Below are positions 7,092-30,711 of a stretch of 37,487 nucleotides of DNA, piece after piece. The notes under the pieces are model-generated. The model did not search any database. It was not told the origin of the DNA and saw only the letters and a list, made by a program, of their open reading frames with translations. The stretch comes from Desulfuromonadales bacterium. GTDB lineage: Bacteria > Desulfobacterota > Desulfuromonadia > Desulfuromonadales > DASPGW01. Location: contig DASPGW010000195.1 of the NCBI GenBank assembly GCA_035620395.1, positions 1-37,487 on the forward strand, written 5' to 3'. How positions within the stretch are numbered: position 1 is the stretch's first letter; every line of letters starts with the position of its first letter. The position numbers were made by a program, and so were the translations under genes.

Positions 7092-7125
7092 CCAGTCAGC
7101 AGGTTTTTAATTGTTCAGAACAGTG

Positions 7126-7157
7126 AATGGGGACCCGCTGCTCAGCGGGTCCCCATT
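7126..7157. terminator. 15-bp hairpin after the Sel1 gene
   Basis: A perfect 15-bp inverted repeat (7126-7140 with 7143-7157, AATGGGGACCCGCTG) with a 2-base centre. The T tract is weak (ATTTGATTT). Placed 34 bases after the Sel1 stop, it is likely a terminator or mRNA-end stabiliser. Confidence 0.6.
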
Positions 7158-7184
7158 TGATTTGCATGGAGCGGTTAAAACAAG

Positions 7185-14089: not shown

Positions 14090-14425
14090 ATGCCGAGGAA
14101 ATATGGGGTAACCCTCGTGATGATCCTGACCCTGGTTCTCGGGGCGCCTGGCAATCTGTTCGCCTTTCGCTGCGGCAGTGGGCTGGTGGAAAAGGGAGAC
14201 CGGAAGATTGAGGTCCTGAAAAAGTGCGGAGAGCCCGCTTCGGTTGACGAGTGGGAGGCGATCCGGCGTACGCCGACCTCCCGGTTCGGCCTGCGGACAA
14301 GCGGTCTGGAGAAGGTTCGAGTCGAGGAGTGGACCTACAACTTTGGCCCGCAGAAATTTCTGCAGATCTACCAGTTCGAAAACGGCGAGGTGGTGGAAAT
14401 GAAGTTCGGTGATTACGGTTTCTGA
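14090..14425 (+). CDS. Exported DUF2845-like protein
   Basis: 111 residues with a signal peptide of about 25 residues. The mature start FRCGSGLVEKGDRKIEVLKKCGEP is typical of DUF2845, with two cysteines (in RCGSG and KKCGEP) that could form a disulfide. The rest has EEWTYNFGPQKFLQIYQFENGEV, a small beta-sheet pattern. Related domains occur in SmpA/OmlA-like small envelope proteins. GGAG lies just upstream. Its 3-prime end overlaps the convergent zinc-ribbon gene by 13 bases. Periplasmic; role unknown. Confidence 0.82.
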   Translation: MPRKYGVTLVMILTLVLGAPGNLFAFRCGSGLVEKGDRKIEVLKKCGEPASVDEWEAIRRTPTSRFGLRTSGLEKVRVEEWTYNFGPQKFLQIYQFENGEVVEMKFGDYGF

Positions 14426-14634
14426 CCCGGTTCCAGGCATCCTGCCGGCAGTTGGCGTTCAGCCCCGCAAATCTCTCGAAGGCTGTGCTGAAGCTCTTTC
14501 AGACCACCCTCAGTCAGCTCTGTGGGCGTGCCGCAGGCAAGACAGGTTTGCCGTCTGCCGAGTGAAAAGTCTGCCAATTTTTGTGACTGGACTTTTCGAC
14601 ATTCCGGGCACTCGAAGTTGATCGACAGCTCCAT
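14413..14634 (-). CDS. Small zinc-ribbon protein
   Basis: 73 residues from ATG 14634, with GGAAGG about 8 bases upstream; a GTG three codons earlier lies inside that site and is less likely. CPEC (residues 9-12) and CLAC form a four-cysteine zinc ribbon over the first 40 residues, followed by a helical tail with ELTEGGLKELQHSL. Similar short ribbons occur in Geobacter relatives, with unknown roles. Its 3-prime end overlaps the DUF2845 gene tail-to-tail by 13 bases. A dyad (14662-14684) and the candidate RNA lie upstream on the same strand. Confidence 0.7.
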   Translation of the reverse strand: MELSINFECPECRKVQSQKLADFSLGRRQTCLACGTPTELTEGGLKELQHSLREICGAERQLPAGCLEPGQKP

Positions 14635-14661
14635 CTTCGCCACCTTCCGGAGGGTTTTTGT

Positions 14662-14684
14662 TGGCAGATACTAATAGTCTGCCA
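14662..14684 (-). promoter_or_regulatory. Dyad upstream of the zinc-ribbon gene
   Basis: TGGCAGA (14662-14668) and TCTGCCA (14678-14684) are inverted around a 9-base AT-rich centre, 28 bases before ATG 14634. The centre contains TATTAG on the minus strand, a possible -10, so this could be an operator over a promoter. Confidence 0.35.
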
Positions 14685-14741
14685 GAGCCATGAATGCGTG
14701 ACAAGTAAAATATTTGCGGGACCTGGAAGGTTCGGAGAGAC

Positions 14742-14773
14742 AAAAAAACGGGGAACCCGGTTAAGGATTCCCC
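14742..14773 (-). terminator. Intrinsic terminator with no coding region upstream
   Basis: On the minus strand GGGGAATCC (14773-14765) pairs with GGGTTCCCC (14758-14750, one G-T pair) across TTAACC, then G and seven T (14748-14742). No protein gene on this strand runs into it. Confidence 0.8.
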
Positions 14774-14903
14774 CAGTCGGAGGAAGGGAAGGGGCCGTCC
14801 CTCCGGCTATCATGATAGGACACCTGCCATCTCCTGCAGGGGAGGAGAAACTTTCGCATTGCGTTTTAGGTGGCGAGGGAACCTTCTGGCCTGCATGAAC
14901 ATT
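14742..14903 (-). ncRNA. Candidate structured small RNA or leader
   Basis: About 160 bases between a strong promoter (14911-14940) and a strong terminator (14742-14773), minus strand, without an ORF. Nested pairings: GAAGG/CCTTC, TCCCTC/GAGGGA (14875-14880 with 14798-14803) and CACCT/AGGTG (14868-14872 with 14821-14825). Inside are a hairpin TCTCCT/AGGAGA (14830-14835 with 14843-14848) and, on the 3-prime side of an internal bulge, a small hairpin CTAT/ATAG (14807-14818). This rod with a bulge and a side hairpin is reminiscent of 6S RNA, but I see no diagnostic conserved sequence. The alternative is a riboswitch-like leader of the zinc-ribbon gene 107 bases downstream. Confidence 0.5.
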
Positions 14904-14910
14904 AGGGTAA

Positions 14911-14940
14911 TTTATATGTTGGTCCTTGCCCTGTTGTCAA
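14911..14940 (-). promoter_or_regulatory. Strong promoter of the candidate RNA
   Basis: The minus strand has perfect TTGACA (14935-14940), 18 bases, then TATAAA (14911-14916). The start is predicted near 14903. No coding start follows before the terminator. Confidence 0.6.
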
Positions 14941-15119: not shown

Positions 15120-15149
15120 TTGGAAGTTGGTTGACACCTGTGCTAGGAT
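15120..15149 (+). promoter_or_regulatory. Possible promoter of clpS
   Basis: TTGGAA (15120-15125), 18 bases, TAGGAT (15144-15149). A short hairpin GGGCAA/TTGCCC (15152-15167) follows at the likely transcript start. The region from 14941 to 15119 holds no feature I recognise. Confidence 0.35.
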
Positions 15150-15185: not shown

Positions 15186-15500
15186 GTGAGTAAAAAGATG
15201 CCGTCAGGGGAAGTCCGCGTCGCTGAAAAAAGCCGAAGCCGGACCGCAAATCCCCCGCTGTTCAAGGTATTGATGCACAACGATGACTACACCACCATGG
15301 AGTTTGTGATCCAGGTGCTGGAGGGTGTTTTCCGCAAACCACCACCCGAAGCGACCCGGATCATGCTCAATATCCATGTCAGAGGAGTCGGCATGTGCGG
15401 CATTTTTCCGTTCGAGATTGCCGAAACCAAGATCGAGGAGGTTCATGCCCTGGCCCGCAAGGAAGGGTATCCTCTCAAATGCAGCCTCGAGGAGGCCTGA
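15186..15500 (+). CDS. clpS: ClpS adaptor for N-degron substrates
   Basis: 104 residues from GTG 15186 (GGAG 11 bases upstream; ATG 15198 is the alternative). ClpS binds proteins with destabilising N-terminal residues and delivers them to ClpA. The core begins PLFKVLMHNDDYTTMEFV, whose Asn-Asp-Asp region lines the N-degron pocket. It continues VLEGVFRKPPPEATRIMLNIHVRG and ends with KCSLEEA. The His in NIHVRG is part of the binding site. The charged N-terminal extension (1-22) is typical and is needed to engage ClpA. clpA follows 10 bases downstream in the same operon. Confidence 0.97.
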   Translation: MSKKMPSGEVRVAEKSRSRTANPPLFKVLMHNDDYTTMEFVIQVLEGVFRKPPPEATRIMLNIHVRGVGMCGIFPFEIAETKIEEVHALARKEGYPLKCSLEEA

Positions 15501-29248: not shown

Positions 29249-29297
29249 TCGGACTAATCGGTCTGACCAGTCCGACTTGTCGGACCGGTCTGACTAC
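29249..29297. repeat. 9-bp tandem repeat TCYGAC+3, locus A
   Basis: Units TCTGACCAG, TCCGACTTG, TCGGACCGG and TCTGACTAC (29262-29297), with a further unit and a half before them (from 29249). It straddles the stop codon of thiED and encodes its last residues. Confidence 0.7.
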
Positions 29298-30711
29298 AAC
29301 TGGCCACGACTTTCGCCGCCTGCCAGTGGTTGACCGGCCCGTGCCCCGCACCGAGCGGGACGGCAGTTTCGATGGCGGTGGTCAAGAAAACCTTGGCCCG
29401 GCCTACCGCCTCGATCAGGGGGAGTCCCTGGGCGATAAAGGTGGCGATCGCCGCGGCATAGGTGCAGCCGGTGCCGTGGGTGTTGCGGGTTGCGATACGC
29501 GGCGAGCAGAAACGGTGCAGGGTCCTTCCTGCCAGCAGCAGATCGACCGCCTCCCCGGGCAGATGCCCCCCCTTGAGCAGGATGTTGCTGGCCCCCATTT
29601 CCTGCAGTCGTCGCGCGGCCAGCTCCATCGCTTTTTCGGTTCGCACCGGCAGCCCAGTGAGGGTCTCGGCCTCCGGCAGGTTTGGGGTGAGCAGATACGT
29701 GCGCGGGAGCAGTTCTTCGCGCAGGGCAGACACCGCTTCATCGCGCAACAGGGGCGAGCCCCCCTTGGCGAGCATGACCGGATCGACTACTGCCGGCAGG
29801 GCATAACGCTCGATGGCGCGGGCTGCCGCAGCGACGATTCCGGCCGAGTATAGCATGCCGGTCTTGATGACATCGGCCCCCAGGTCGCCAAGGACAGCCT
29901 CGATCTGCGCTTCGACGAAATCAACCGGCACAGGATAAACACCGCGTACACCTGAAGTATTCTGGGCGGTCAGGGCAGTGAGCGCGCTCATGCCGTAGCC
30001 GCCGAGCAGCGTAATGGTCTTCAGGTCGGCCTGAATGCCGGCGCCGCCGCTCGAATCGGAACCGGCAACGGTAAGGATGCGGCCGCGCGGAAAGGGGAGT
30101 CGGCGGTTGAAGAGCAGGGAAATCTCGCGGGCGGCAACAGCGGGCGCGTCGGCGCCCATCACCGCGGAAATCACCGCCACCGCTTCGGCGCCGGCATCGA
30201 TGGCGGCACCGGCGTTGTCGCGGTCGATGCCGCCGATGGCGACGATAGGGAGTGTCACCGCCTGCCGCACCTGCCGCAGCCGCTCCAGTCCGACCAGTTC
30301 GGCGTTGTTCTTGCTGCCGGTGGGGTAGATCGCCCCGAGGCCGATGTAGTCGGCCCCCTGGCTCTGCGCCGCGAGCGCCTGATCGACGGTGCGGGTGGAA
30401 ACGCCGATGATTCGGCCAGGTCCCAGAATGCTGCGGGCCTCGCCGATACTGCCGTCCCCCTGGCCGAGGTGGACCCCGTCGGCTTCGCTGAGCAGGGCGA
30501 GCTGCGGCGAATCGTTGACCAGAAAGACTGCCCCGGCCTGCCGGCAGAGCCGGCCGAGCTCGCGGGCTACGACCACCTGTTGCTCGGCCGGACGATACTT
30601 GTCCCGGTACTGGACGACCCGGGCGCCGCCGCGCAGTGCAGCGGCGACACGCTCGGCAAGCCGACCGTCAGAGTCGGAGTCGGTGATGAGGTAGAGACCG
30701 TTGATCGTCAA
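29254..30711 (-). CDS. thiED: ThiE-ThiD fusion: thiamine-phosphate synthase + HMP-P kinase
   Basis: 485 residues from TTG 30711 (weak ribosome site; no better start, and MTINGLYLITDS fits ThiE). The ThiE half (about 1-200) joins HMP-PP and thiazole phosphate: GGARVVQYRDK, FLVNDSPQLAL, DGVHLGQGD, IGVSTRTVDQA, DYIGLGAIYPTGSK and PIVAIGGI. The ThiD half (about 210-470) phosphorylates HMP-P: ILTVAGSDSSGGAGIQADLK, VVDPVMLAKGG, LLTPNLPEA and NTHGTGCTYAAAIA with its catalytic Cys/Gly region. The last 14 residues (CSQTGPTSRTGQTD) are encoded by a 9-bp repeat and are probably not functional. A TPP riboswitch precedes it. Confidence 0.95.
   Translation of the reverse strand: MTINGLYLITDSDSDGRLAERVAAALRGGARVVQYRDKYRPAEQQVVVARELGRLCRQAGAVFLVNDSPQLALLSEADGVHLGQGDGSIGEARSILGPGRIIGVSTRTVDQALAAQSQGADYIGLGAIYPTGSKNNAELVGLERLRQVRQAVTLPIVAIGGIDRDNAGAAIDAGAEAVAVISAVMGADAPAVAAREISLLFNRRLPFPRGRILTVAGSDSSGGAGIQADLKTITLLGGYGMSALTALTAQNTSGVRGVYPVPVDFVEAQIEAVLGDLGADVIKTGMLYSAGIVAAAARAIERYALPAVVDPVMLAKGGSPLLRDEAVSALREELLPRTYLLTPNLPEAETLTGLPVRTEKAMELAARRLQEMGASNILLKGGHLPGEAVDLLLAGRTLHRFCSPRIATRNTHGTGCTYAAAIATFIAQGLPLIEAVGRAKVFLTTAIETAVPLGAGHGPVNHWQAAKVVASCSQTGPTSRTGQTD

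Follow-up and report, generated by a model that had tools for sequence, protein, structure and literature searches.

We found that the minus strand of the spacer between clpS and a small zinc-ribbon protein gene carries a promoter well above chance and an intrinsic terminator with no credible gene between them. This makes a transcript of about 160 nt (14903-14742) likely on sequence grounds, and we tentatively favour, as its best explanation, a free-standing, untranslated and lineage-specific (orphan) small RNA (sRNA) that may act by base pairing through C-rich loops. The window, by which we mean the whole stretch of 37,487 nucleotides that was analysed, corresponds to contig C195 in a metagenome-derived assembly of 3.3 Mb, 95.8% complete, from a Desulfuromonadales bacterium; ClpS likewise has its nearest matches among named genomes in the Desulfuromonadales. 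The clpS gene (15186-15500, plus strand), with homologues in 131 of the 136 genomes of the order, is the divergent neighbour of the locus. The zinc-ribbon gene (14634-14413, minus strand; 73 aa; homologues in 35 of 134 genomes of the order) is the ORF downstream of the terminator and starts at 14634, the 107 bases beyond the T-run that an earlier, sequence-only reading of this DNA had given. It converges with a plus-strand gene at 14090-14425, the two 3' ends overlapping by 13 bases (14413-14425).

Pattern searches of the window and the assembly placed a -35 hexamer, TTGACA, at 14940-14935 and, after a spacer of 18, a -10 hexamer, TATAAA, at 14916-14911 on the minus strand. This exact arrangement is single in the window and appeared in none of the 100 dinucleotide shuffles that served as the window control; in the assembly as a whole, TTGACA-N16-18-TATAAW occurred 12 times as compared to 0 for the reversed pattern used as control, which suggests that the pattern picks out real promoters and bears out the promoter claimed from the letters alone. 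A generic promoter scan misses the 14940-14911 site only because it demands a T at the final -10 position. Four of the 11 other consensus sites immediately precede tRNA genes (Ala, Leu, Asn, Gly), and a fifth stands before an ORF of 34 aa with a terminator behind it, so this class of promoter often marks short stable transcripts. Exact TTGACA-16/18-TATAAW sites are rare in the source genome and often stand at a tRNA or other short stable unit, and are for that reason good pointers to unannotated RNA genes. On the opposite strand, a stretch upstream of clpS (15127-15149, plus strand; CTTGGAA ... TGTGCTAGGAT) resembles the one that precedes this gene in several other families and may be a conserved promoter or operator.

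The transcript is predicted to start 7-8 nt after the -10 hexamer and to stop at an intrinsic terminator reported by a terminator scan at 14773-14742 (minus strand; 9-pair stem, loop of 6, seven T). Its stem, GGGGAATCC-TTAACC-GGGTTCCCC (14773-14750), has 9 pairs, six of them G-C and one G-T, and is followed by a G and then seven T at 14748-14742; it is the best among four candidate terminators in 1.4 kb, and the GC-rich stem with seven T expected some 160 bases past the promoter is thus confirmed. Because no minus-strand gene lies between this terminator and the divergent clpS, a transcript ended there must begin in this spacer. The earlier statement that no ORF intervenes is nearly right, in that there is no credible gene, but two frames are present: one of 30 codons (MFMQARRFPRHLKRNAKVSPPLQEMAGVLS; 14902-14810, minus strand), beginning at about the predicted +1 and probably a product of chance, and one of 99 codons that begins at 14813 and passes through the terminator. 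Both were rejected as genes for want of supporting evidence. The spacer therefore offers what one would look for in an orphan sRNA, namely its own promoter, an intrinsic terminator and no translated frame, and the proposed promoter-to-terminator RNA unit is to this extent supported, all of it from sequence.

The fold of the body adds little. With a z of -1.2, and 25 of 200 shuffles folding as well, it is no better than chance, so the nested stems that had been proposed weigh little, the terminator excepted. Two hairpins with C-rich loops can be drawn on the minus strand: UCUCCU-CCCCUGC-AGGAGA (14848-14830), which appears in the fold of the 161-nt transcript and is absent from the minimum-energy fold of the body, and GGAGGGA ... 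UUCCUCC (14804-14779), which adjoins the terminator and was found in three separate folds; neither has comparative support among the relatives searched. If the locus is an orphan sRNA, a near-consensus sigma-70-type promoter would drive an RNA of about 160 nt, untranslated and with its 3' end at the intrinsic terminator; the C-rich loops of this RNA, CUCCUCCCC and CCCCUUCCC, could pair with the G-rich Shine-Dalgarno regions of mRNAs. Other C-rich bacterial sRNAs pair with Shine-Dalgarno regions. The orphan sRNA is favoured by the exact consensus promoter, the co-oriented strong terminator, the lack of an ORF of note and the lack of an Rfam family. Against it stand the fold, the failure to find a homologue in the genomes searched, and the co-oriented gene that begins 107 nt past the terminator, an arrangement that also fits a leader.

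One could thus envision an attenuated leader of the zinc-ribbon gene, in which transcription from the same promoter would stop at 14742 unless an alternative pairing permits read-through. In the antiterminator, the 5' arm of the terminator, GGGGGAAUCC, would pair with UUCCUCC (14785-14779) or with AAGGUUCCCUC (14885-14875), and a leader peptide would be encoded by the 30-codon frame, whose end at 14810 lies shortly ahead of the first stem segment. Beyond the geometry, with terminator and gene on the same strand, it is consistent with this account that the scan reports no sigma-70-like promoter between the two and that four segments (14804-14798, 14785-14779, 14774-14768 and 14758-14750) give 1:2, 2:3 and 3:4 stems as mutually exclusive pairings (terminator, -15.4; 2:3, -9.0; 1:2, -11.1 kcal/mol); an upstream duplex with a 10-nt arm reaches -15.0 kcal/mol, and the longer 269-nt leader fold has a z of -1.8. 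However, dinucleotide shuffles produce alternative pairings just as good in 10% of cases for the duplex and 17% for the local pairing, and among relatives, all of them from other families than the source, the usual arrangement has the zinc-ribbon gene 70-210 nt behind a preceding gene on its own strand, with no conserved terminator upstream. Riboswitches, T-boxes and other known leaders were rejected, none reaching its Rfam gathering score. The leader alternative raised by the sequence-only reading accordingly keeps its competing pairings and loses the support of relatives, and we regard it as rather doubtful. Between the terminator and the gene lies an inverted repeat, TGGCAGA-CTATTAGTA-TCTGCCA (14660-14690), possibly an operator or hairpin.

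Searched with blastn, neither the order (136 genomes) nor the class (277 genomes), all from other families than the source, yielded a relative of the putative orphan sRNA. A 29-nt match in genome G012 (E 8e-4) lies in another context with the terminator layout missing and was treated as chance. What a single-sequence covariance model picked up in the 136 genomes of the order was for the most part terminators resembling this one in sequence, with no homologue beyond that resemblance. The terminator loop AAYCCWTAACCGGRTT gave 6 matches in these genomes versus 2 for the reversed control, and among the 6 only those in this window and in G044 fall within a hairpin with a long T-run; homology by way of this common loop was rejected in favour of chance or convergence. 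The clpS-to-zinc-ribbon intervals of these relatives contained no convincing RNA copy and no sequence similarity to the spacer. A search for a phage or plasmid origin of the spacer RNA was without match.

The same intervals raise the possibility that the locus is a by-product of gene loss, an hflK/hflC operon having disappeared and left a promoter facing a gene-end terminator, with a short RNA of no function between them. Several relatives have hflK/hflC or other genes between clpS and the zinc-ribbon gene, with hflK/hflC-like genes lying divergent beside clpS, and in G009 (L124) a gene-end terminator precedes the zinc-ribbon gene by 75 nt. A search with hflC from the relative whose ClpS is closest gave no match in this assembly; since this query is 71% identical to the hflC of another family, the loss of hflKC here is a fair inference, limited by the 95.8% completeness of an assembly in which absence is not proof. 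Yet the sequences upstream of hflK in relatives carry, by eye, no TTGACA-18-TATAAA promoter, and the spacer bears no resemblance to their intervals; a functionless remnant seems unlikely to us. A clade-specific regulatory RNA that replaced hflKC beside clpS, and that would control genes such as the zinc-ribbon gene through anti-Shine-Dalgarno loops or attenuation, is in our judgement quite improbable.

Among known RNA families, 6S RNA had been suggested from the outline of the stems. Reading the locus as 6S RNA, or as a 6S-like regulator of RNA polymerase, has in its favour only a length near 160-180 nt and the promoter-terminator layout, and is extremely improbable: the Rfam 6S model (RF00013, cut-off 46.4 bits) is without match here even at E 10, and it matches on three other contigs of the assembly, above the cut-off on C111 (68.8 bits) and C95 (50.5 bits) and below it on C213 (35.9 bits). 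We thus rejected 6S RNA at this locus. As to the closing stem that in 6S RNA joins the 5' and 3' ends around a large central bubble, a duplex of the first 30 nt with a stretch near the 3' end has a raw computed energy of -19.1 kcal/mol, and the predicted fold shows local hairpins and the terminator at its end. The proposed covariance-model check against Rfam, riboswitch models included, gave no family at its gathering score in the spacer, and at E up to 10 only weak matches below those scores, none of them 6S; on the minus strand they include Xoo2 (RF02241, 21.1 bits, gathering 45) and sX13 (RF02232, 13.1 bits, gathering 50), both families of hairpin-plus-terminator sRNAs, which favours the orphan sRNA. 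In the window, gathering thresholds are reached only by a tRNA (7711-7639) and by a TPP riboswitch (30922-30816, minus strand) upstream of a thiamine-synthesis gene (29254-30711), which we take, naming its domains from sequence, to be a fusion of thiE-like and thiD-like parts.

The model search also brought to light a conserved RNA directly 3' of a degP/htrA-type gene in family f8 of the Desulfuromonadales, which is not the source family. It is exemplified by L238:1454-1562 (minus strand) and recurs at L264-L292, in genomes G088-G101, G109-G125, G027 and G037; its model, R2, finds it at E<1e-10 in 29 of the 136 genomes of the order, all f8, with second copies in some. One hairpin, with loop CUGCUCAG, shows strong covariation, 10 of its 12 pairs having changes on both sides; a second, GGACGU-UACCUCCU-ACGUUC, carries a loop that is identical to the anti-Shine-Dalgarno core at the end of 16S rRNA, and is followed by a terminator. 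DegP homology stops just upstream of the RNA in the great majority of loci examined, and the RNA is probably a 3'-UTR-derived sRNA that mimics the anti-Shine-Dalgarno sequence. None of seven loci tested reaches an Rfam gathering score, the best sub-threshold match of one member being to suhB/mmgR (26.8 bits, gathering 41). Flanks suggest that the second copies at L235:1501-1609 (minus strand) and G094:C135:4167-4275 (L261) are not behind degP; the G094 copy carries a tandem pair of CCUCC hairpins. This RNA is better supported than the one at our locus. In both, a hairpin comes before a terminator of the form GGGGAAYCC/GGGTTCCCC, and R2 aligns to 14848-14741 with 22.2 bits, but neither of the conserved loops, UACCUCCU and CUGCUCAG, is present here, and because R2 was itself found through terminator resemblance to the locus RNA, its match back is circular; membership was rejected on both counts. 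The source genome gave no DNA match to the degP RNA and no R2 match at E 0.01. A perfect hairpin adjoining a Sel1-like gene, GGGGACCCGCTG-CTC-AGCGGGTCCCC (7121-7160, plus strand), matches R2 weakly (14.7 bits).

The open papers searched say little about the small RNAs of this order, and the orphan sRNA, if real, would be one more lineage-specific short RNA gene in it. Set beside known systems, the locus agrees with 6S RNA in length class and differs in that the 6S covariance model does not match. It shares with trp- and his-type attenuators a series of alternative stems before a terminator and a short upstream frame, but its alternative pairings are equalled in 10-17% of shuffles, its 30-codon frame is without a regulatory codon run, and the downstream gene is not biosynthetic. 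Although their scores lie far below gathering and show no sequence homology, Xoo2 and sX13, its best weak minus-strand matches in Rfam, resemble the locus RNA in being short and untranslated, with C-rich hairpin loops and an intrinsic terminator.
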